Below, one piece after another: positions 4,635 through 46,268 of a DNA stretch of 64,000 nt. Location: the NCBI RefSeq assembly GCF_026340655.1, contig NZ_JAPEOZ010000001.1:9796001-9860000 (forward strand), in the 5' to 3' direction. Position 1 is the stretch's first letter, and the number at the start of each line of letters is the position of its first letter. The position numbers were made by a program, and so were the translations under genes. The notes beneath the pieces were generated by a model, which worked only from the letters and a program-made list of their open reading frames with translations, did no database searches and was not told the DNA's origin. The stretch is from Streptomyces sp. NBC_01275 (GTDB lineage Bacteria > Actinomycetota > Actinomycetes > Streptomycetales > Streptomycetaceae).

Positions 4635-5855
4635 TCAGCCCCGCAGCAGGACCGGGATCTCCTGCCAGCCGAACGCGATGAACGACGGCACCTGCTCGAG
4701 CTCGTCGTCCGCCAGCCGCAGCTGCGGGAACCGGTCGAACAGCGCGGGCAGCGCGGTCAGCGCCTCCATCCGGGCCAGCGGCGCGCCGATGCAGCGGTGC
4801 ACGCCGATCCCGAACGCCAGATGGTCCTCCGCCGCCCGCGTCGCGTCGAAGACGTCCGCGTCCGGCCCGTAGTGCGCCGGGTCGAGCCCCGCGGCCGCGT
4901 ACGTCGTGATGATGGCGTCCCCGGCCGGGATCGTCACCTCGCCGACCTTCAGGTCGCTCACGGCGAACCGCAGCGGCAGCGAGGCGATCGACGGATGCGC
5001 CCGCAGCGTCTCGTCCACGACCGCGTCCCAGGAGATCTCCCCGCGCCGCACGGCCGCCAGCTGCTCGGGCCGGCGCAGCAGCGCCACCACCGCGTTGCCG
5101 ACCAGGTTCATGGTCGTCTCGAACCCGGCCCCGATGACCAGCAGCAGCGTGTACAGCAGTTCCTCGTCGCTGAGCCGGCCCCCGTCCTCGTCCCGCACCC
5201 GGATCAGCTCGGTCGTCATGTCGTCGCCGGGGTGCTCGCTCTTGTGGGCGATGAGCGCGCCCAGCACGGCGCCGATCTGCTCCTGCACGAACGCGGCGTG
5301 CTCCGGGCTCGGATCCGAGGTGTCCATGATCGCCGCGATCAGCCGGCCGGTGGCGTCCCGCAACTCCTCGGGCACACCGAACAGTTCGCAGATGATCTGC
5401 ATCGGCAGCGGGTGCGCGAGCCCGGCCTTCAGGTCCACCGGCTCGCCGCCGCCCGCGTCGAGGGCGTCCAGCAGCTCCCCGGTGATCGTCTCCACCCGCT
5501 CCCGCAGCGCCTCCGTGCGCCGGTGCGTGAAGCTCGGCGCCACCAGCTTGCGCAGCCGCGTGTGGTCGGCGCCGTACGTCGACAGCATGTTGACCACGCC
5601 GACCCAGCCCAGGATCCAGCCCCAGGACGGGTGTTCGCCCAGCTCCGGCCAGAGCCGCCAGTGCAGCCGCGGGTCCTTGCTGACCTGCGGGTCGAGGATC
5701 AGCTCCTTGAGGGTGTCGTACCCGGTGGGCGCCCAGGCCGGGATGCCGCCGGGCAGCTCCACGGGCACGATCGGCCCCAGGGCGCGCAGCCGGGCGCTCT
5801 CGGCGGCGATGTCGGCGCCCAGCGGGTCGAGGGCGATGCGGTCGGTCACGGTCAC
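4635..5855 (-). CDS. conservon cytochrome P450 (CYP154-like)
   Basis: Cytochrome P450 of 406 aa, last gene of the conservon operon. All core motifs are present: I-helix IGAGFETTMNL, K-helix ExxR as ETLR, and the haem loop FGIGVHRCIG with Cys355 as thiolate ligand. GTG start at 5855 overlaps the stop of the preceding P450 gene by 4 bp (GTGA), indicating translational coupling. Known Streptomyces conservons often end with one or two P450 genes, and CYP157/CYP154 pairs are described in S. coelicolor. I infer the CYP154 family from pairing and motif pattern, not from a search. The substrate is unknown. Confidence 0.85.
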   Translation of the reverse strand: MTVTDRIALDPLGADIAAESARLRALGPIVPVELPGGIPAWAPTGYDTLKELILDPQVSKDPRLHWRLWPELGEHPSWGWILGWVGVVNMLSTYGADHTRLRKLVAPSFTHRRTEALRERVETITGELLDALDAGGGEPVDLKAGLAHPLPMQIICELFGVPEELRDATGRLIAAIMDTSDPSPEHAAFVQEQIGAVLGALIAHKSEHPGDDMTTELIRVRDEDGGRLSDEELLYTLLLVIGAGFETTMNLVGNAVVALLRRPEQLAAVRRGEISWDAVVDETLRAHPSIASLPLRFAVSDLKVGEVTIPAGDAIITTYAAAGLDPAHYGPDADVFDATRAAEDHLAFGIGVHRCIGAPLARMEALTALPALFDRFPQLRLADDELEQVPSFIAFGWQEIPVLLRG

Positions 5856-7102
5856 GACGGGACTCCTGGCTGGTCGGGAGAGGGATCGGGGGAGCGGGGG
5901 CTGAAGCGGACGGGCAGTGCGGTGAGCGAGCGATGGAACGGCCCCGGCCGCCAGGCGAGCCGCTCGCGGGGCAGGAGGGGATCGAGGTCGGGCAGCCACT
6001 GGGTGAGCCGCTCGATCGCCTCGGTGACGAGCAGCAGCGTGTGCTGCTTGACCGGGCAGGCGTGCGCGCCCGCGCCCCACGACAGGTGCGAGGCGTCGTT
6101 CGGATGCCGGCCCTCGGTGACCTCCCGCTCCGCGAAGTGCCCGAGCGCCCCGAACGACACCACCACCGGCACTGCGTCCTGCAGCCACACCCCGTGGAAG
6201 GCGACGGGCTTGCGGGCGTAGTAGACGCCGTAGTTGGCCAGCGGCGTCTCGTGGTGCAGCACCTCCACCACCGCGTCCATGACCGGACGGGCGCCGCTGG
6301 TGAGCGTCGAGTAGTAGGCCGAGTGGCCCAGGATCCTGGACAGCGTGTTGGACAGCAGGTTCGCCGTCGGCTCGTATCCGGCGCCGAGGGTGAGGAACAC
6401 CTGCCAGGTGACCTCCTCCCGGGTCAGCCCCGCCGGATGCTCCAGCAGCCGGCTGGGCAGGTCGTCGCCGGGCCGCGCCGCCTTGGCCGCGATGAGCTCC
6501 AGCACGTACTGCGCGAACTGCGCCTCGCCCTCGACGGCCTGCGCGCCGCCCTCCATCATCTTGCCCAGGCCCTCGTTGAGCCGGTCGCCCTGGCTGTCCG
6601 GCAGCCCGAACAGGTCGTTGAGCACCAGCGCCAGCAGCGGCCGCGAGAAGTCCGCCACCAGATCCGCCTCGCCACTGGGCCCGATGCGCCCGGCCAGCAG
6701 CCGCACCGCCCGGTGCACCCGCCTGCGCAGGTCGTACGGCTCCACCAGGTCGAAGACGTCGATGAGCGTGGTGCGGTAGCGCAGGTGCGCCGCGCCGTCG
6801 GAGAACAGGGCGTTGGGCCGCCACCGCATCATGCCGAGCACCGGCGAGTCGACGGGGACCGTCGACTCCCATGCGCGCGGGTCGTGCGAGAACGTCTCCT
6901 CGTCGTGCAGCACGTCCAGCGCCGCCCGCCGGTCCGTGACCACGTAGGCGGGCACGCCCGGCGCCAACTCCGCCCAGCCGATCGGCCCCTGGGCGTGCAG
7001 GGCGGCGTAGTAGCGGCTCGGGTCCGGAGCGAAACCGTCCTCCCACAGCCGTACCGGCGCCGAGCGCGAGAAGTCGCGCTGGTCCGGGGGATAGGCGGTC
7101 AC
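5852..7102 (-). CDS. conservon cytochrome P450 with altered ExxR (CYP157-like, RarE type)
   Basis: P450-fold protein of 416 aa, fifth gene of the conservon. The haem loop is SWGAGAHACPVK with Cys349, so the thiolate ligand is kept. The K-helix reads VVEVLHHETPL, giving ExxH where nearly all P450s have ExxR. The I-helix reads LGAGYEPTANLL, with Pro next to the conserved Thr. Loss of ExxR is the published hallmark of the CYP157 family, whose members sit in conservons. GTG start at 7102 overlaps the cvnD stop by 4 bp. It may be a partner or regulatory P450 rather than an ordinary monooxygenase. Confidence 0.85.
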   Translation of the reverse strand: MTAYPPDQRDFSRSAPVRLWEDGFAPDPSRYYAALHAQGPIGWAELAPGVPAYVVTDRRAALDVLHDEETFSHDPRAWESTVPVDSPVLGMMRWRPNALFSDGAAHLRYRTTLIDVFDLVEPYDLRRRVHRAVRLLAGRIGPSGEADLVADFSRPLLALVLNDLFGLPDSQGDRLNEGLGKMMEGGAQAVEGEAQFAQYVLELIAAKAARPGDDLPSRLLEHPAGLTREEVTWQVFLTLGAGYEPTANLLSNTLSRILGHSAYYSTLTSGARPVMDAVVEVLHHETPLANYGVYYARKPVAFHGVWLQDAVPVVVSFGALGHFAEREVTEGRHPNDASHLSWGAGAHACPVKQHTLLLVTEAIERLTQWLPDLDPLLPRERLAWRPGPFHRSLTALPVRFSPRSPDPSPDQPGVPS

Positions 7103-14521: not shown

Positions 14522-15008
14522 CGCCGCTCCCGCCCGTGCGTCCCGGGACCCGCCTGTGTGCTGCGCCCCGGTGAGTTCTCTCTCGACGCTACGACGACGA
14601 GCGGAAGCGGACCACTCGAACGGGCTACCGGCGGCCTTCGACTCCCTCTCCGCGGGTGTTCCGGCGTCTCCCCGCGCGAGGCCGAAAACCTGCGCCGATC
14701 ATGCCGAATCCCCAGTTGGGCATGGTCAATTCCAGCCGATGTTTTGACGCTCCCATGACAAACCTGTGGACCCGATGCAACGCTTCTGCCGAAGTTCACC
14801 CTTTCTTCACACCCCCACCATGCGTCACACCCCCCACCCTGCGGCGCAGCCCGCACCACCCCCCACCCCCCGTTCCTCCTCACCCCCCACTCCCCCCACA
14901 GCCTCCTTCACCCGCCTGCAGTGCCGTGCGCCCCGGACCGGCCCCACCCCGCCGTTCCGCCCCTCCCCGGCCTCCATCACGGGCCGACCGTCGCAGAAGG
15001 AGAACCCG
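14522..15008. other. intergenic region with C-rich leader before the M4 protease gene
   Basis: No gene is supported. This 487-bp stretch separates two divergent secreted-protein genes and holds both promoters. The segment 14700-14800 is relatively AT-rich. From about 14808 to 14905 the plus strand is a run of C tracts (many CCCC to CCCCCC groups split by A or T), giving G tracts on the other strand. AGAAGGAGAA at 14995-15004 is the ribosome site of the protease gene. Confidence 0.5.
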
Positions 15009-17273
15009 TTGCCCAGGCGACCCCAGCACCGGCGCAGACGCGCCACCGTCCTCGCCCTCACCACCGTCGGCACCCTGCTGACCCTCGGAGTCCAGACCGG
15101 CGGCGCGTCCGCCGCCCCCGCGGACCCCGGTCCCGCGCAGATCACCGCCACTCCGCGCGCCGGAGCGGCCGCCGCGTCCCTGACGCCCGCCCGGCGCACC
15201 TCGCTGCTGAAGAGCGCGCAGACCGCGTCCGCCGCCACGGCGCAGCGGCTCGGCCTCGGCGCGAAGGAGAAGCTCGTCGTCAGGGACGTCATCCAGGACG
15301 CCGACGGCACCACGCACACCCGCTACGAGCGCACCTACGCCGGGTTGCCCGTCCTCGGCGGCGACCTGGTCGTCCACCTCAAGAACGGCAGCAGCACCGT
15401 GACGAAGGCGAGCGGGGCGACCCTCGCGGTGCCGTCGCTCACCCCGAAGCTCTCCGCCGCCGACGCCACCGGCAAGGCCCTCACCGCCTCGAAGAAGGCC
15501 GAGGTCAAGGGCTCCGAGACCGGGGACGCACCCCGTCTGATCGTCTGGGCCGGCGACGGCAAGCCCGTCCTGGCCTGGGAGACGGTCGTCGAAGGCGTCC
15601 AGCAGGACGGCACGCCCAGCGAACTCCAGGTCGTCACCGACGCGACCACCGGCAAGCAGATCCTCGCCGCCGAGAAGGTGGAGACGGGCAGCGGCACCGG
15701 CCAGTACAGCGGCACGGTCCCGCTCGGCACGACCCTGTCGGGATCGACGTACCAGCTCACCGACGGCGGCCGCGCCGGGCACAAGACGTACGACCTGAAC
15801 CAGGGCACCTCGGGCACCGGCACCCTCTTCACGGACGACAACGATGTCTGGGGCGACGGCACCACCGCCAACCGCCAGACCGCCGGTGTCGACGTGGCCT
15901 TCGGCGCCGCGGCCACCTGGGACTACTACAAGAACGTGTACGGCCGCAACGGCATCCGCAACGACGGCGTCGCCGCCTACAGCCGCGCCCACTACGGCAG
16001 CAGCTACGTCAACGCCTTCTGGCAGGACAGCTGCTTCTGCATGACCTACGGCGACGGCTCGGGCAACACCCACCCGCTGACCGCACTCGACGTGGCCGCC
16101 CACGAGATGAGCCACGGCGTCACCGCCGCCACCGCCAACCTCACCTACTCGGGCGAGTCCGGCGGCCTCAACGAGGCGACCTCGGACATCTTCGCCGCCG
16201 CCGTCGAGTTCTACGAGAACCTCCCGGCCGACCCCGGCGACTACTTCGTCGGCGAGAAGATCGACATCAACGGCAACGGCACCCCGCTGCGCTACATGGA
16301 CAAGCCCTCCAAGGACGGCTCCTCGCGCGACAGCTGGAGCTCCACCCTGGGCAGCGTCGACGTCCACTACTCCTCGGGCCCCGCGAACCACTTCTTCTAC
16401 CTCCTCTCCGAGGGCAGCGGCCCCAAGACCGTCAACGGCGTCGCCTACGACAGCCCGACCTACGACGGCCAGGCCGTCACCGGCATCGGCATCGAGAACG
16501 CGGCCGCGATCTGGTACCGGGCGCTGACGACGTACATGACGTCGTCGACCAACTACGCGGGCGCCCGCACCGCCACCCTCCAGGCCGCGGGCGACCTCTT
16601 CGGCGCCTACAGCCCGACCTACCTCGCCGTCGCCGACGCCTGGGCCGGCATCAACGTCGGCAGCCGGATAGCCCTCGGCGTCAACCTCGCCCCGATCGCC
16701 GACCAGACCAGCGGCGTCGGCCAGGCCGTCTCCCTCCAGGTGGACGCCTACACCACCAACAGCGGCTCGGCCCTCACCTACGAGGCGACCGGCCTGCCCG
16801 ACGGTCTGTCCCTCAGCCCGAGCGGACTGATCTCCGGCACGCCGACCACCCTCGGCACCAGCGACGTCACCCTCAAGGTCACCGACAGCACGGGAGCGTC
16901 CGTCACGGACACCTTCGCCTGGCGGATCGCGTACGTCTACGCCACCAGCACTCGTGTCGACATCCCGGACAACGGCGCGGCCGTGGAGTCCCCGATCACC
17001 ATCGCGGGCCGCGACGGCAACGCCTCGGCCACGGCCTCGGTGTACGTCAACATCGTCCACACCTACCGCGGTGACCTGACCGTCGACCTCGTCGGCCCGA
17101 ACGGCACCGTCTACTCGCTCCTCAACCGCAGCGGCGGCTCCGCCGACAACGTCGACCAGACCTTCACCGTCGACGCCTCCGCGCAGCCCCTGAACGGCGT
17201 CTGGAAGCTGCGGGTCCAGGACCGCGCGTCGATCGACGTGGGCTACATCCAGCGCTGGCAGCTCACTCCCTGA
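15009..17273 (+). CDS. secreted M4 (thermolysin-like) metalloprotease with Ig-like and P domains
   Basis: Zinc metalloprotease of 754 aa made as a preproenzyme. The TTG start at 15009 follows AGAAGGAGAA. Residues 1-36 are a Sec signal rich in Arg at the front. Next come FTP and PepSY propeptide regions (to about 210), then the M4 catalytic domain with His365-Glu-Met-Ser-His369 and the third zinc ligand Glu389 in GGLNEATSD. Around 555-640 a putative Ig domain (SLSPSGLISGTPT) follows, then a C-terminal proprotein-convertase P domain (VYVNIVHTYRGDLTVDLVGP, LNGVWKLRVQDRA). Such proteases degrade external protein. A tandem TGATCTCCC repeat starts at the stop codon. Confidence 0.93.
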   Translation: MPRRPQHRRRRATVLALTTVGTLLTLGVQTGGASAAPADPGPAQITATPRAGAAAASLTPARRTSLLKSAQTASAATAQRLGLGAKEKLVVRDVIQDADGTTHTRYERTYAGLPVLGGDLVVHLKNGSSTVTKASGATLAVPSLTPKLSAADATGKALTASKKAEVKGSETGDAPRLIVWAGDGKPVLAWETVVEGVQQDGTPSELQVVTDATTGKQILAAEKVETGSGTGQYSGTVPLGTTLSGSTYQLTDGGRAGHKTYDLNQGTSGTGTLFTDDNDVWGDGTTANRQTAGVDVAFGAAATWDYYKNVYGRNGIRNDGVAAYSRAHYGSSYVNAFWQDSCFCMTYGDGSGNTHPLTALDVAAHEMSHGVTAATANLTYSGESGGLNEATSDIFAAAVEFYENLPADPGDYFVGEKIDINGNGTPLRYMDKPSKDGSSRDSWSSTLGSVDVHYSSGPANHFFYLLSEGSGPKTVNGVAYDSPTYDGQAVTGIGIENAAAIWYRALTTYMTSSTNYAGARTATLQAAGDLFGAYSPTYLAVADAWAGINVGSRIALGVNLAPIADQTSGVGQAVSLQVDAYTTNSGSALTYEATGLPDGLSLSPSGLISGTPTTLGTSDVTLKVTDSTGASVTDTFAWRIAYVYATSTRVDIPDNGAAVESPITIAGRDGNASATASVYVNIVHTYRGDLTVDLVGPNGTVYSLLNRSGGSADNVDQTFTVDASAQPLNGVWKLRVQDRASIDVGYIQRWQLTP

Positions 17274-17952: not shown

Positions 17953-18651
17953 TCACGTCCGGCGGGGCGAGGGCGCCGCGCCCACGGCGAGCTGGGCCAG
18001 CGGTGTGCCGAGGGCCCACAGCCGCAGCCGGGGGCCGTCGATCAGGAAGGTGCGCCCCTCGCGCGCGGCCCACACCTCGTCGCGGTGGGTGAACGTGCCC
18101 CGGTGCACGACGAGCCGCAGCGGGGGACCGGCCCGCCGTCGCACCCGCGGCCGGCAGGAACAGGCGGTGTCCTCGCCGGGCAGCGGCTCGGCCACGGGCC
18201 GGAACGCCACGTCGAGCACCCGTCCCCGGCCGTCGTGGGCGGCGAGATGGAGGGCGTCGTGCCGGGGCGGCGGCAGCACCCGCCAGCCGTCCCGCCGGAG
18301 CATCCGGGCCACCGCGAGCACCAGCGCCGGCATGTCCAGCTCGGCCAGCTCCTGCGCGGTGTAGTAGCCGCTGCGCCGCCGGGCCGGCCGACGGGAGAGA
18401 CGCCGCACGACCACGGCGACGACGGCGAGCGGCACGAGGACGAGCGCCCCCGCCCACCCGCCGTACACCCGGGAGACCAGCGTCAGTCCCACGACCGCGG
18501 CGCACACCACGACCACCAGGCCGGTCAGGGCGGGCAGCACCTCACGTAATCGGGGCCCGTAGCGGCCCGCCGCGCGCAGCTCGCGCACGGTCCGCCGACG
18601 CCGTGCGGACGCCGACTCGGCCGCCCGCGCCTCCTCCTGCCTGCGTGCCAT
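17953..18651 (-). CDS. membrane protein with degenerate Mrr-like endonuclease domain
   Basis: Protein of 232 aa. A basic N-terminus is followed by two membrane helices (about residues 40-62 and 65-85). The soluble part begins YYTAQELAELDMPALVLAVARMLRRDGW, as in Mrr-type restriction-endonuclease domains, and ends LRLVVHRGTFTHRDEVWAAREGRTFLIDGPRLRLWA, also Mrr-like. The catalytic D...(D/E)xK pattern (usually with QCK) is not recognisable between them, so the domain has probably lost nuclease activity. Two-helix Mrr-like membrane proteins are common in Streptomyces; their role is unknown. Confidence 0.65.
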   Translation of the reverse strand: MARRQEEARAAESASARRRRTVRELRAAGRYGPRLREVLPALTGLVVVVCAAVVGLTLVSRVYGGWAGALVLVPLAVVAVVVRRLSRRPARRRSGYYTAQELAELDMPALVLAVARMLRRDGWRVLPPPRHDALHLAAHDGRGRVLDVAFRPVAEPLPGEDTACSCRPRVRRRAGPPLRLVVHRGTFTHRDEVWAAREGRTFLIDGPRLRLWALGTPLAQLAVGAAPSPRRT

Positions 18652-18849
18652 CAGGGTCGGCCCCCCAGCCCGTACACCACGATGTGTAAGAGCGTGATAC
18701 CCGCCGATTCGGGGCCGATACGGAACATGCCCCCATGCGACGCGTTTCCGCCACGGTCTTGGCCGAAGAGCGTCCCCACGTCCCTCGTCGAGCCTGGTCG
18801 GCCGTCGGCCGCGGGGCCGTTGTCAGTGGCGGATGGCAAGCTGCTGGTC

Positions 18850-19122
18850 ATGGACGAGGCTGAGTTCTTGCGGGGGCGGGTCTACGGCGCCGATCACGAC
18901 GACGCGGGGCCCCGCCCGGAGCGCGTGTACGCGGAGCTGGTGGGCGGTCCGCTGGACGGGTTGCTGCTGGACGTCACGGACCGCTCCGACCACGCGCTGC
19001 GCGAGGTGGCCCTGACGACGGAGATAGGCCGCTACGGCCCCGGCGGCCGGACCGTGTACGTGCGCCGGGGCGCCGACGGCCGCCGCTTCGACTGGCGGGC
19101 CGACGCCCCGGGAACGCCGTGA
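18850..19122 (+). CDS. small conserved hypothetical protein
   Basis: Acidic protein of 90 aa: MDEAEFLRGRVYGADHDD, then a central YAELVGGPLDGLLLDVTD and ending GGRTVYVRRGADGRRFDWR. The VGGPLDG element and the late YxxR-F-W pattern are like small Streptomyces proteins of unknown function. The start is uncertain: ATG at 18850 or GTG at 18829 in frame. It is convergent with the P450 gene of the peptide locus, 91 bp between stops, so it is unlikely to belong to that operon. Confidence 0.6.
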   Translation: MDEAEFLRGRVYGADHDDAGPRPERVYAELVGGPLDGLLLDVTDRSDHALREVALTTEIGRYGPGGRTVYVRRGADGRRFDWRADAPGTP

Positions 19123-19213
19123 CATCCGGGCCCGCCTCGCCACCCGTGTCCACGTTGATGTCCGTGTAGACCGTGACAGTCGGGCGCACGTCGACCCCCG
19201 TGTCCCGCAGCGG

Positions 19214-20260
19214 TCACCGGGAGCGCATGTCCACGTCGACCACGCTCATCAGTCCGGCCAACGGCACTCTGGCCGCGGTCTGCCGTGGGTCGGGGGCCAG
19301 TCCGTTGTGCCGGGCGATGTCCAACAGGCGTTCCGCCAGCGGCAGGACCATGTGCCGGCCCCAGCAGCGCTCGTCGGTGTGGCCGAAGGGCAGGTAGCCG
19401 GGGGCGGTGTCCGGGTCGAGGTCGTTCCATCGCTCGGGGCGGAACGCCTGGGGGTCGTCCCACAGCGCCGGGTCGCGGTGGGACAGCAGCGGCAGCATCA
19501 GGACGTCGTCCTTCGGGCCGATACGGTCGTCGAGGCGGGTGAACTCGGGGGAGGCCACGCGCAGCAGGTTCCAGGAGACCGGCAGCAGCCGCAGCGACTC
19601 GTGGACGATGTGCCGGTTGGGCGTGTCGGGAGCGAAGGGCGCGCCGAGCCACAGCGCGTTCGCGACCAGCGCCGAGACGGTGAAGCAGACTGGCGCCGCC
19701 GCCCGCCGGTACAGGCCCATGGCGTGCCGTCGCGCCGCGTACGTCGACGCCTCGGCGGTCCCGGCGGCGAGCCGCGAGGTCCCCGCGAGCGCCCCGCGCC
19801 GCCCGGGCAGTCCCGCGCCCACGGTGACGACGGCCCAGGTCAGTTTGGGCGTCCACTCCAGCCGCCGGTCGACCAGGACCTTCAGCCGGCGGGGGTCACG
19901 GCCGAAGACGGTGTCCCGCAGATAGGTGTGGGCGACCTGCGGCCAGTTTCCGGAGAGGTCGGCGGACAGATCGGTCGGCTCGGCGAGCGCAGCCCGTACG
20001 TCCTGGCCCACGGCCCGCATCACGGCCGACGCCTCGGTCCGCGGGATCGATCTACCGAGCAGCGGCTTGAAGGTGGGCCGCTCGAAGTCGTTGGCCGGCC
20101 GACTGGCCATGATCCGCTCGATGAGCTCGGCCGAGGCGACTCCCACCGTCTCGGGGTCGAGCCGGAACACCCGGTCCCCGAGGTGGTCGTCCAGCAGCGA
20201 GCGGATCCGCGGGGCGAAATCCACTCTGCGGTCCTGTGTGAGCGAGGGCGACAGTGACAT
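19214..20260 (-). CDS. atypical cytochrome P450, predicted atropopeptide crosslinking enzyme
   Basis: Short P450 of 348 aa placed just downstream of a 26-residue precursor gene ending in AWYIWF. The K-helix ExxR is Glu221-Ser-Leu-Arg224, and the PERF-like motif is FRPERW (273-278). The haem loop is PFGHTDERCWG with Cys299; Thr295 replaces the usual Gly. The I-helix region (about 188-203) lacks the canonical AGxxT/acid-alcohol pair. Known atropopeptide loci consist of a precursor and one P450 that makes C-C and C-N bonds between aromatic residues. The ATG at 20260 has CTGGAGATCCC in front. Role inferred from neighbour and core sequence; P450 family membership is certain. Confidence 0.82.
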   Translation of the reverse strand: MSLSPSLTQDRRVDFAPRIRSLLDDHLGDRVFRLDPETVGVASAELIERIMASRPANDFERPTFKPLLGRSIPRTEASAVMRAVGQDVRAALAEPTDLSADLSGNWPQVAHTYLRDTVFGRDPRRLKVLVDRRLEWTPKLTWAVVTVGAGLPGRRGALAGTSRLAAGTAEASTYAARRHAMGLYRRAAAPVCFTVSALVANALWLGAPFAPDTPNRHIVHESLRLLPVSWNLLRVASPEFTRLDDRIGPKDDVLMLPLLSHRDPALWDDPQAFRPERWNDLDPDTAPGYLPFGHTDERCWGRHMVLPLAERLLDIARHNGLAPDPRQTAARVPLAGLMSVVDVDMRSR

Positions 20261-20295
20261 GGGATCTCCAGATCGGAGCGACGGAGGTAAAAGGG

Positions 20296-20339
20296 GCGTG
20301 CGCCCGCCGATTCCGTTACCGGAAAAGGCGGGCGCACGC
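20296..20339 (-). terminator. hairpin between precursor and P450 genes, likely attenuator
   Basis: GCGTGCGCCCGCC (20296-20308) and GGCGGGCGCACGC (20327-20339) are a perfect 13-bp inverted repeat around an 18-base loop. Read on the minus strand, it starts 25 bases after the precursor stop and is followed by CCCCTTTTACC. It would cut most transcripts after the precursor gene and let a fraction reach the P450 gene, as in many RiPP operons. Confidence 0.7.
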
Positions 20340-20364
20340 GGGGGGTCACTCACACACCGGCGAC

Positions 20365-20445
20365 TCAGAACCAGATGTACCAGGCATACGCCTTCAGGCT
20401 CTTCTCGCCGGTGATCTTCTTCTTCAGGGACCCGAGCATCTTCAT
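20365..20445 (-). CDS. RiPP precursor peptide, atropopeptide (tryptorubin) type
   Basis: A 26-residue peptide too short for ordinary gene calling. The leader (1-20) is Lys-rich with LGSLKKKITGEKSLKAY, and the last six residues are Ala-Trp-Tyr-Ile-Trp-Phe directly before the TGA. A GGAGG sits six bases before the ATG. Tryptorubin A, the founding atropopeptide, is a crosslinked AWYIWY hexapeptide made from the C-terminus of a similar small precursor by a single P450; the adjacent P450 gene fits that. The last core residue here is Phe instead of Tyr. Seen: peptide, ribosome site, P450 neighbour. Known: the family layout. Inferred: processing and product. Confidence 0.85.
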   Translation of the reverse strand: MKMLGSLKKKITGEKSLKAYAWYIWF

Positions 20446-20820
20446 GGAATGCCTCCGTCGCTGGGAGAGTGACACGGAATCGGGACGAGTAAATCCCCGG
20501 GCGTCAGGCCGGTCAACGGTGACGGGGAACACGCGACACGATCCCGCCAGAATTCCCGGCGGAGGTGTGAAAACGGCGGTGCACTGCTGGATAAACAGTC
20601 GTGCACTCTCAGGCAGAAACCTCCGCATAAACGCTGGGTAATGAGGTCCATAAAACCGATCGAGGCGGCCATAAAGCAGGGATCGACACAGCGGGGAAAC
20701 CGGCGCGCCGTATGCGCGGCCGCGGGTTTCACGGACCGCGGGTTCTCCTGTCGTCGACGGGTGCGCCGACCCAGCCGAAACCCGATCGCTTCCCGCGCGG
20801 GAAGGTGGTCACATGTACGA
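20446..20820. promoter_or_regulatory. gene-free promoter region of the atropopeptide locus with paired GTGCAC boxes
   Basis: No gene is supported in these 375 bp, which are more AT-rich than average and must hold the precursor promoter on the minus strand. GTGCAC occurs at 20579-20584 and 20601-20606, two helical turns apart, flanking CTGGATAAACAG, so the block reads as a nested inverted repeat (GTGCACTG...CAGT.GTGCAC). It lies 134-162 bp upstream of the precursor start. No regulator gene is adjacent. Confidence 0.45.
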
Positions 20821-21177
20821 ATGTCGACTGGATCTCCACCTGCCGCCCATGTGCCCGTCGCGCCGACGGTGCGGCACGGCTGGCACAAACTCCTCCTCGG
20901 TCTCTTCCTGTTGACCCGGGCGACCCGTATCCCCGCCGCGATCGACGGCATGCCGGGGGCGAGTCAGGCGAGTCCGGCGGGCCCGGCGGGTCCGACGGGT
21001 TGGTGGATCGTGGCGTGGGCGGTCCTCGCGCTCGTGCTGGCCGCCTTCGCCGCGAGCGAGTGGGAGATCCTCCGGGCGACGTCCTGGCGCATGCGGCTCC
21101 CGCAGTGGATCTGCCTGGTCCTCTTCCACGTCGGTTTCACCGGCTTCGTGGTCTGGATCGTGAGCGGGGCGCTCTAG
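20821..21177 (+). CDS. small membrane protein of unknown function
   Basis: Protein of 118 aa, divergent from the peptide locus. Two membrane helices are clear: GWWIVAWAVLALVLAAFAAS (about 61-80) and WICLVLFHVGFTGFVVWIVS (about 96-115). An amphipathic LLLGLFLLTRATRIPAAIDG segment (25-44) may be a third. The middle holds a Gly/Pro/Ser run (SQASPAGPAGPTG). The start is uncertain; ATG 20821 is preceded by GGAAGGTGG at a long 12-base distance, and the frame is open upstream. No family recognised. A role in export of the peptide product is possible but unsupported. Confidence 0.6.
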   Translation: MSTGSPPAAHVPVAPTVRHGWHKLLLGLFLLTRATRIPAAIDGMPGASQASPAGPAGPTGWWIVAWAVLALVLAAFAASEWEILRATSWRMRLPQWICLVLFHVGFTGFVVWIVSGAL

Positions 21178-21252
21178 CGCGCGTCACGACCGCTCCCGTC
21201 GCGAGGCTTCTCGCCGTCAAGCTCCCGGCGCGGCACGGCAGTTGGGTGTGTT

Positions 21253-21320
21253 TGTTCGATCGTACGAACATTTCATCGATGGGTTACTTCTTGCCCCGCA
21301 GCTTGATAGGAAACTTTCCT
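21253..21320 (+). promoter_or_regulatory. chitosanase operator and upstream inverted repeat
   Basis: AGGAAACTTTCCT at 21308-21320 is a perfect palindrome with a central C, 56 bp before the chitosanase start. From memory, palindromes of the form AGGAAAnTTTCCT upstream of Streptomyces chitosanase genes are the operator of the ROK-family repressor CsnR. A second inverted repeat, TGTTCG-N6-CGAACA, lies at 21253-21270. Confidence 0.65.
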
Positions 21321-21375
21321 GTCAGTTGCGGCACAGAGTCATCCACCCACCCCCCACTCCTCACCGGGAGCCACT

Positions 21376-22227
21376 GTGGTGCACATATTCCGGGCAGCGG
21401 ACGGCCTCGCCGCCCTTCCCGCCTCCCGCCGTACGTTCCTCACCCTGACCGGAGCGCTGGCGGCGGCCCCGCTGCTCGCCTCCCCGCACGCCGTCGCCTC
21501 CCCCACGCCCCGCGCCGCGCGGGGGCTCGACGACCCGGCGAAGAAGGAGATCGCCATGAAGCTGGTGTCGAGCGCGGAGAACTCCTCGCTCGACTGGAAG
21601 GCCCAGTACAAGTACATCGAGGACATCGGCGACGGCCGCGGCTACACCGCGGGCATCATCGGCTTCTGTTCCGGCACCGGCGACATGCTCGACCTCGTCC
21701 AGCTCTACGCCGACCGCAAGCCCGGCAACGTCCTCGCCAAGTACCTGCCCGCCCTGCGCGCGGTCGACGGCAGCGACTCGCACGCGGGACTCGACCCGAA
21801 CTATCCGAAGGACTGGCGCACGGCCGCCCAGGACACCGCGTTCCAGCAGGCCCAGAACGACGAACGCGACCGCGTCTACTTCAACCCGGCCGTCAGCCAG
21901 GGCAAGACCGACGGCCTGCGCGCCCTGGGCCAGTTCGCCTACTACGACGCCATCGTCATGCACGGCGACGGCACCGATCCCACCAGCTTCCGCAACATCC
22001 GCAAGCGCGCCCTGAACAAGGCGAAGCCGCCGGCCCAGGGCGGCGACGAGACGACGTACCTCAACGCCTTCCTCGACGCCCGCGTCTGGGCCATGAAGCA
22101 GGAGGAGGCGCACAGCGACACCAGCAGGGTCGACACCGCCCAGCGCGTCTTCCTGCGCAAGGGCAACCTCGACCTCGACCCGCCTCTCGACTGGAAGGTC
22201 TACGGAGACAGCTACCACCTCGGCTGA
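21376..22227 (+). CDS. secreted GH46 chitosanase
   Basis: Endo-chitosanase of family GH46, 283 aa, which hydrolyses beta-1,4 bonds of chitosan outside the cell. A twin-arginine-type signal (SRRTFLTLTGALAAAPLLAS, about 18-37) precedes the mature enzyme. The catalytic acid Glu68 (SSAENSS) and base Asp86 (IEDIGDGRGYT) are 18 residues apart, exactly as Glu22 and Asp40 in the Streptomyces N174 enzyme. The family core GIIGFCSGTGDM follows. The GTG at 21376 has GGGAG five bases before. The upstream palindrome suggests chitosan-oligosaccharide induction. No transporter for the products is adjacent. Confidence 0.95.
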   Translation: MVHIFRAADGLAALPASRRTFLTLTGALAAAPLLASPHAVASPTPRAARGLDDPAKKEIAMKLVSSAENSSLDWKAQYKYIEDIGDGRGYTAGIIGFCSGTGDMLDLVQLYADRKPGNVLAKYLPALRAVDGSDSHAGLDPNYPKDWRTAAQDTAFQQAQNDERDRVYFNPAVSQGKTDGLRALGQFAYYDAIVMHGDGTDPTSFRNIRKRALNKAKPPAQGGDETTYLNAFLDARVWAMKQEEAHSDTSRVDTAQRVFLRKGNLDLDPPLDWKVYGDSYHLG

Positions 22228-22424
22228 CCGGGCAGCGCCCGCGGGGACCGGCCGGAGGCCCGGCAGCGCCGCCGCCGCGTCACTGTGACGTGGCTGTGAC
22301 GCTGCTTGTGGCCTCCGTCACGGCCGGAGTGATCGGGTCCCGTCCAAGATCGGCGAGTGCCGTGCCGTGCGGCGCCGATCCTGCGGCGCCGACCGGGCGG
22401 CGCCCGACAGAAGGCGAGCCCGCC

Positions 22425-45053: not shown

Positions 45054-46268
45054 ATGTCGACCACAACGCCCAGTCAACAGCCCCTCGTCGACCCGGCCGA
45101 GCTGATCGCGGATCCCGACTCCGATCCCCACTCCGTGTACGCACGACTTCGCGAGGCCGGGCCCGTCCACCGCATCACCGGCACGGACGGGCTTCCGGCC
45201 TGGCTGGTCACCCGCTACGACGACGTACGCCAGGCGCTGGCCGACCCCCGGCTCTCCCTCGACAAACGCAACGCCAAGCCCGGCGGCTACCACGGGCTCT
45301 CGCTGCCGCCGGCGCTGGACGCCAACCTGCTCAACATGGACCCGCCGGACCACACCCGCATCCGGCGCCTGGTGTCCCAGGCGTTCACCCCTCGCCGTGT
45401 CGCCCTCCTGCGCGAACCGATCCGGGAGACCGCCGAGTCACTGCTCGACGCGATCGAACCGCTCGGCCGCGCCGACCTCATCGCCTCCTACGCCGCGCCG
45501 CTGCCGATCACCGTCATCTGCGGCCTGCTCGGCGTCGCCCCGCACGACCGGCCCGACTTCCGGTCCTGGACCGACGCCCTGACGGCCCCGGACCCGGAGC
45601 GACCGCAGCAGGCGAAGGACGCCGTCCGGGCCCTGCTCGGCTTCTTCACCCGGCTCATCGCCGACAAGCGCGCCGCCCCCGCCGAGGACCTCCTCTCCGG
45701 CCTGATCGCCGTACGCGACGACGAGGACCGGCTGAGCGAGGACGAGCTGATGTCCCTGGCCTTCCTCATCCTGATCGCCGGATACGAGAACACCGTCCAC
45801 CTGATCGGCAACGCCGTCCTCTCCCTGCTCGGCCACCCCGACCAACTGGCCGCGCTGCGCGCCGATCCCGGCCTGCTCAGCGGCGCGGTCGAGGAACTGG
45901 CCCGCTACGACGGTCCCGTACCGCTGGCCGTGCGTCGCTTCCCCACCGAGGACGTCACGATCGGCGGGGTCACCGTCCCGGCGGGCGAGACCGTGCTGCC
46001 GTGCCTGGCCTCAGCCCACCGCGACCCCCGCCGTTTCACCGAGCCCGACCGCCTCGACCTCGGCCGCGACGCCCGCGGTCATCTCGCCCTCGGGCACGGC
46101 ATCCACTACTGCCTCGGCGCGCCCCTGGCCCGGATGGAGACCGAGATCGCCCTCGCCGCGCTCCTCGACCGCTTCCCCGGGCTCACCCTCGACCTCCCGC
46201 CGGAGGGACCGCACTGGAGGCCGTCGATGCGCTCCCGGGGGCTGCGGGCGCTACCGGTGACCTTCTGA
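45054..46268 (+). CDS. cytochrome P450 (CYP107-like)
   Basis: Standard bacterial P450 of 404 aa. The I-helix is LIAGYENTVHLIG with an acid-alcohol-like ENT, the K-helix ExxR is ELAR in AVEELARYDGP, and the haem loop is LGHGIHYCLG with Cys353. The overall pattern (LLNMDPPDHTRIRRLVSQAFTP) is that of CYP107-type soluble monooxygenases that act on secondary metabolites or foreign compounds. The substrate is unknown. It starts 38 bp after a secreted hydrolase gene, and its 3' end overlaps the convergent galU gene by 18 bp. Confidence 0.9.
   Translation: MSTTTPSQQPLVDPAELIADPDSDPHSVYARLREAGPVHRITGTDGLPAWLVTRYDDVRQALADPRLSLDKRNAKPGGYHGLSLPPALDANLLNMDPPDHTRIRRLVSQAFTPRRVALLREPIRETAESLLDAIEPLGRADLIASYAAPLPITVICGLLGVAPHDRPDFRSWTDALTAPDPERPQQAKDAVRALLGFFTRLIADKRAAPAEDLLSGLIAVRDDEDRLSEDELMSLAFLILIAGYENTVHLIGNAVLSLLGHPDQLAALRADPGLLSGAVEELARYDGPVPLAVRRFPTEDVTIGGVTVPAGETVLPCLASAHRDPRRFTEPDRLDLGRDARGHLALGHGIHYCLGAPLARMETEIALAALLDRFPGLTLDLPPEGPHWRPSMRSRGLRALPVTF

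Follow-up and report, generated by a model that had tools for sequence, protein, structure and literature searches.

The minus-strand locus at 19214-20445 is a complete, minimal atropopeptide (tryptorubin-type) operon, in which a 26-codon precursor gene is followed, 104 bases downstream, by a P450 gene. The locus adds an ordinary member to the atropopeptide family; it is intact and has a rare residue, Phe, at the tail of its core peptide AWYIWF. The whole stretch of DNA analysed (64,000 nucleotides; hereafter, the window) covers positions 9,796,001-9,860,000 of a 10.41-Mb contig of Streptomyces sp. NBC_01275. Taken as a whole, the operon is likely to yield a P450-crosslinked AWYIWF peptide, most likely with a tryptorubin-type scaffold and Phe6 left free, while an intergenic RNA hairpin would tune the enzyme level. 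The features of the window referred to below were the following.

20365..20445, minus strand: precursor gene, 26 amino acids and stop, MKMLGSLKKKITGEKSLKAYAWYIWF (reading frame; NCBIfam NF038372 tryptorubin_fam)
20296..20339, minus strand: intergenic RNA hairpin, then CCCCTTTTACC (RNA fold; dinucleotide shuffles)
19214..20260, minus strand: atropopeptide-type cytochrome P450, 348 amino acids (reading frame; Pfam p450; conservation; tree; predicted structure)
19112..20782, no strand: stretch without counterpart in the relative G013, an empty site (flank comparison)
4635-7046, minus strand: further P450 frame with a GxHxCxG haem motif (Pfam p450 match at about 4.7-5.2 kb)
45054-46268, plus strand: further P450 frame with a GxHxCxG haem motif (Pfam p450 match at about 45.7-46.2 kb)

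Precursor gene and genomic setting

The precursor gene starts with an ATG at 20443-20445, has a GGAGG six bases ahead of it and ends with a stop codon at 20365-20367, in agreement with the coordinates, the ribosome site and the 26-residue product ending in AWYIWF given in the preliminary description. Its product consists of a leader (residues 1-20, with KSLK at 15-18) and the core (residues 21-26). It matched the NCBIfam model for tryptorubin family RiPP precursors (NF038372) over positions 1-26 of 26 (4.2e-15, 55.7 bits, cut-off 33). Among 394 genomes from the window's taxonomic family, 49 had a match to the model, against none of 14 control genomes; this distribution, together with the score of 55.7 bits, ruled out a chance short open reading frame.

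Atropopeptides are defined by a class-defining P450, a KSLK leader motif and Trp at core position 2 (PMC11450843). Judged by sequence, the locus has all three, core position 2 being Trp22 of the precursor. Within the family, the bitryptide subfamily combines an xWxxWx core with a KSLK leader (PMC11450843), and AWYIWF has Trp at both core positions 2 and 5. Loci of the tryptorubin A/B type (AWYIWY) share with the window the two-gene layout, the KSLK leader and core residues 1-5, but end in Tyr where the window core ends in Phe. Their precursors are 26 amino acids long, as is that of the window, with one exception of 38 amino acids (L081).

The operon neighbours look ordinary. Nine neighbouring proteins were scanned, comprising an M4 metallopeptidase, a GH46 glycosidase, a secretory lipase, an AraC-type regulator, an MFS transporter and four proteins without a Pfam hit. 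The M4 (thermolysin-type) metallopeptidase, which carries an FTP propeptide motif and a P-domain, lies at 14766-17273 on the plus strand, about 2 kb from the operon. When six flanking proteins of the window were sought near the relatives of the P450, only the GH46 glycosidase was found, at two loci; the flanks covered reached 6 kb at most of the 80 named loci and no more than about 1.5 kb at the remaining ones. GC content falls to about 62% in 20250-20749, the 5' part of the operon.

In G013, a relative from the same genus, syntenic flanks matched window positions 18799-19111 (87%) and 20783-22283 (80%). They lie 106 bp apart in G013 (contig C1, near 603958-604065; L166) versus 1671 bp in the window, and no insertion scar was seen by eye at the G013 junction. 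Thus, the operon is present or absent here as a self-contained unit, and by sequence the comparison would fit either a gain in the window or a loss in G013.

P450 enzyme and its relatives

The P450 gene has an ATG at 20258-20260, a GGAG five bases before it and a stop ending at 19214. Its product carries ExxR at residues 221-224 and the haem-binding stretch PFGHTDERCWGR with Cys299. The Pfam p450 match (4.3e-13) was confined to residues 218-304, and the earlier wording "unusual P450" is a fair description of this partial match, although it describes the normal state of the atropopeptide enzyme family. P450 length was 345-380 amino acids in 113 of the 116 extracted P450 rows; the outliers were L073 (343 amino acids), L153 (159 amino acids, truncated where its stretch ends) and L052 (a frame of 105 codons). 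The last of these, from a Xanthomonas cucurbitae record, has a frame that starts at 6001 and stops after 105 codons while tblastn matches continue, so that its P450 gene looks interrupted in that record; its precursor is present, with the core SWYIWY.

The search of named genomes returned 102 P450 relatives; the best 80, at 58-77% identity to the window P450, were retained. Although these 80 loci had been found by P450 alone, every one was preceded by a matching precursor whose leader is KSLK-like and whose core has W..W. The precursors were read by a first script at 75 loci, by a second at two (L033, L085) and from reading frames at three (L015, L057, L086). The count refers to P450-found loci only, while the 116 extracted loci mix P450-found and precursor-model-found cases. 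Such a P450 occurred in 15 of the 150 genomes searched as relatives, that of the window included.

Several of these precursors were divergent. That of L015, upstream of a P450 at 6001, has KNLK in place of KSLK before AWYIWY and was missed by the motif-based scripts. L057 (Kutzneria; P450 at 5956-7023) has the core AWALWY with TSLK, and L086 (Streptomyces; P450 at 5995-7095) has AWYHWY after a short leader that contains RSFK. CoreFinder lists six leader motif variants (PMC11450843), and neither TSLK nor RSFK is among them.

On a tree with outgroup (32 of the 114 family rows and four of eight other P450 loci from the window's own genome, chosen for their standard haem motif), the window P450 fell inside the atropopeptide group (100/100), as sister to the AWYIWY locus L009 (100/99), with L017 apart. 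The quick tree (114 rows, quick method, no outgroup) also placed the window as sister to L009 (support 100) and L017 elsewhere, among AWYIWY loci (support 99). L009, from Streptacidiphilus sp. ASG 303, was also the nearest P450 by sequence (78% identity in an alignment whose 53 other P450s were 58-67% identical to that of the window). The end branch of the window P450 on the quick tree was long (0.36 versus 0.11 for L009), and therefore its regiochemistry may have shifted. The leaders of the two precursors differ at 4 of 20 positions, the L009 core ends in Tyr, and none of the six flanking proteins of the window was matched within 6 kb on either side of L009.

The two-gene atropopeptide locus proposed in the preliminary description was thus borne out by the NF038372 match, the precursors at all 80 P450 relatives, the conservation of the P450 (below) and its placement on the tree. 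Two of these results, the P450 grouping with the atropopeptide enzymes and the precursors lying beside its relatives, are the opposite of two of the three outcomes that had been named there as refuting it.

The window P450 keeps 118 of the 119 columns conserved in at least 95% of 113 relatives, the sole exception being L51M. Compared with L009, dN was 0.18 and dS 0.66 (dN/dS about 0.27), which together with the column conservation indicates that the enzyme is under purifying selection. This constraint, and the intact reading frames with their ribosome sites, make it extremely improbable that the locus is decayed or silent and gives no product, as might be suspected from the complete lack of the operon in the close relative G013. 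No promoter-like site was found at the operon by a simple scan either, and operon expression is for this reason unproven.

An AlphaFold model of the P450 (55 sequences) had a mean pLDDT of 89.0. In this predicted structure, eight residues separate a long helix (174-206) from the helix with ExxR (215-225). The very short link at residues 206-215 (window about 19616-19645) joins the I-helix region to the K helix. Textbook P450s have further helices between the long helix and the ExxR-bearing helix, and since an eight-residue link replaces them, the fold appears trimmed in the model, apparently family-wide. Among the matches listed for Foldseek against the PDB (50 of 1553) were general P450s, with query TM 0.48-0.63, and no entry named as an atropopeptide enzyme. 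The best PDB sequence matches were 9ulw (a P450, role unstated) and CYP3A4, both over the C-terminal part only.

No second P450 was found near the operon, either by a genome-wide Pfam p450 search or among the nine neighbouring proteins. The two other P450 frames of the window, one more than 12 kb and the other about 25 kb away, have a standard haem motif, unlike the operon P450.

Core peptide and predicted crosslinks

Trp2 and Trp5 were present in all 113 script-read precursors (116 loci, window included), a count that the W..W search pattern partly builds in, and also in the three precursors read by eye. Position 3 was Tyr in 111 of the 113 and Phe in two, position 4 was variable, and position 6 was Tyr in 87, Ile in 19, Val in three, Phe in two, Trp in one and Leu in one. 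AWYIWF is therefore rare but not unique, as it is also the core of L017 (Streptomyces corallincola J2-1). The L017 precursor matches NF038372 with 48.5 bits and its locus has a 10-bp intergenic stem; its P450, in contrast, is 63% identical to that of the window and belongs to a different clade beside AWYIWY loci. Given this placement, Phe6 most simply arose twice, by independent Tyr6-to-Phe changes in the window lineage and in L017, although the sequence tree formally still allows one origin. A literature search found AWYIWF or WYIWF cores in no paper; the supplementary list of 685 precursors of PMC11450843 may already tabulate AWYIWF.

Other family members also end in a residue other than Tyr. 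The last core residue is Trp in L024, from Amycolatopsis xylanica, and Leu in SvaA of the varsorubin (sva) locus (PMC11450843). A. xylanica is the species that makes amyxirubin (PMC11450843), and L024 is, by species, a candidate amyxirubin locus.

By analogy with published relatives, the ribosome would make the 26-residue precursor, the KSLK leader would dock on the P450, and the P450 would oxidatively crosslink Trp2, Tyr3 and Trp5 of the core. The most likely scaffold would have a Trp-Trp C-C bond, a Trp-Tyr C-N bond and a Trp-backbone C-N bond, costing 4 H overall and leaving the tail residue Phe6 unbonded. A host peptidase encoded outside the operon would then cut off the leader and perhaps also Ala1; in atropopeptides, leader removal has been ascribed to unlinked host proteases (PMC11450843). 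A precursor and one P450 suffice for three-bond products in the published pairs LauA with LauB1 and SvaA with SvaB (PMC11450843), and on this basis the window P450 most likely makes tryptorubin-type bonds.

The preliminary description had suggested that the terminal Phe may bring a different crosslink pattern. Phe6 is indeed rare and the P450 branch long, and laurentirubin has a fourth bond, to residue 6 (PMC11450843). However, every core residue except the sixth takes part in the bicyclic ring system, so the three shared bonds bypass it, and varsorubin B1 (WYQWL), which ends in Leu, has three bonds of the usual kind (PMC11450843). The Tyr6-to-Phe change should accordingly leave the shared crosslinks as they are. 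The fourth bond of laurentirubin is an ether added to Tyr6 by a second P450 (PMC11450843). The window shares with the laurentirubin (lau) locus the precursor type and the class P450, but has no phenol at position 6 and only two other places with a Pfam p450 match, each over 12 kb away, and hence lacks both elements of the extended laurentirubin-type cluster. A different pattern brought about by Phe6 is thus very improbable; by analogy, the change probably leaves the cage unaltered and removes the phenol used for the extra ether of laurentirubin.

The expected mass shift also had to be revised. The earlier proposal of a 2 H loss per bond fails for the three-bond scaffold, because varsorubin B1 loses four H and not six with its three bonds (PMC11450843), in agreement with the recomputed masses. 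With a loss of 4 H, the predicted [M+H]+ is 881.398 for the hexapeptide AWYIWF and 810.361 for the pentapeptide WYIWF; with a single bond (loss of 2 H), it is 883.414 and 812.377, respectively. For varsorubin B1, the mass script returned 791.351, the published calculated value (PMC11450843).

The single-bond masses correspond to a monocyclic product, in which the window P450 would make one Trp-Trp bond only, as in scabrirubin and varsorubin B2a (PMC11450843). We retained this alternative because such natural one-bond products exist and because P450 phylogeny is, according to the authors of that study, a poor guide to atropopeptide structure (PMC11450843). Varsorubin B2a has Tyr3, as here, and arises from the same P450 and the same core, SWYQWL, as the three-bond varsorubin B1 (PMC11450843); ScaB gave one-bond products from 13 of the 15 precursors offered (PMC12352619). 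Furthermore, the quick tree placed the window in the same 39-row half as TWFIWYS-type loci. Against this, the sister of the window is the AWYIWY locus L009 and not a TWFIWYS-type locus, and the scabrirubin core TWFIWYS has Phe3, whereas the window core has Tyr3 and departs from three-bond AWYIWY at the uncrosslinked position 6 only. We therefore regard a monocyclic product as unlikely and the three-bond tryptorubin-type scaffold as the preferred reading.

Intergenic RNA hairpin and significance of the locus

Between the two genes, the RNA can form a hairpin with a 13-bp perfect, G+C-rich stem (arms 20327-20339 and 20296-20308) that encloses an inner 5-bp stem-loop and is followed by CCCCUUUUACC. 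The fold of 20250-20370 had an energy of -57.6 kcal/mol versus a mean of -38.1 for dinucleotide shuffles (z -5.8), and none of 2000 such shuffles matched the 13-bp stem.

Perfect intergenic stems of at least 10 bp were present in 51 of 108 loci, against 1.1 predicted from shuffles; the 108 are the 116 loci without three that had no script-read precursor and five with fewer than 40 intergenic bases. In control regions of the same length, such stems occurred upstream of the precursor in 4/108 loci, inside the P450 gene in 0/107 and after the P450 in 21/106. After thinning at 75% P450 identity, the counts were 12/25 (intergenic), 1/25 (upstream), 0/25 (coding) and 7/25 (downstream). In the 51 loci, the median distance was 22 bases from the stop codon to the stem and 29 bases from the stem to the P450 start, and the sequences of the stem arms vary among clades. 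Stems of at least 10 bp were missing in the other 57 loci, including the nearest relative L009, in which the intergenic stem of 7 bp was no better than in shuffles.

A T-rich tail follows the stem in only one of the 51 loci, the window itself, and a strict scan for intrinsic terminators found none between the precursor and P450 genes. For lack of such tails in the other loci, the hairpin would generally form a transcript 3' end or block P450 translation rather than act as a textbook terminator. A search over window 18600-21300 (E up to 1) found no known Rfam RNA. The main text of PMC11450843 does not contain the terms hairpin, terminator, intergenic, attenuat- or stem-loop, and a literature search on RiPPs and atropopeptides yielded no relevant report of a hairpin between genes. 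In the searchable literature, this family-wide hairpin is thus the part of the locus for which we found no description.

These counts suggest that the hairpin controls the ratio of precursor to enzyme, by transcript end formation or by masked P450 translation; it would probably keep P450 transcript or translation below the level of the precursor. For the broader proposal, that atropopeptide operons share a hairpin kept as structure and not as sequence, which sets this ratio via stalling, trimming or partial termination, we see an even chance. If the hairpin does set the ratio, it would offer a practical handle, comparable to the ribosome site that, when added before svaB, raised yield 100-fold (PMC11450843).

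For the family, the locus adds a naturally occurring analogue of tryptorubin A, with Phe in place of Tyr6, and offers a direct test of the role of the tail, in crosslinking or in the unknown biological role of the product. Because S. corallincola provides a second, apparently independent case of the same change, the tail may be under selection of its own while the cage stays fixed.
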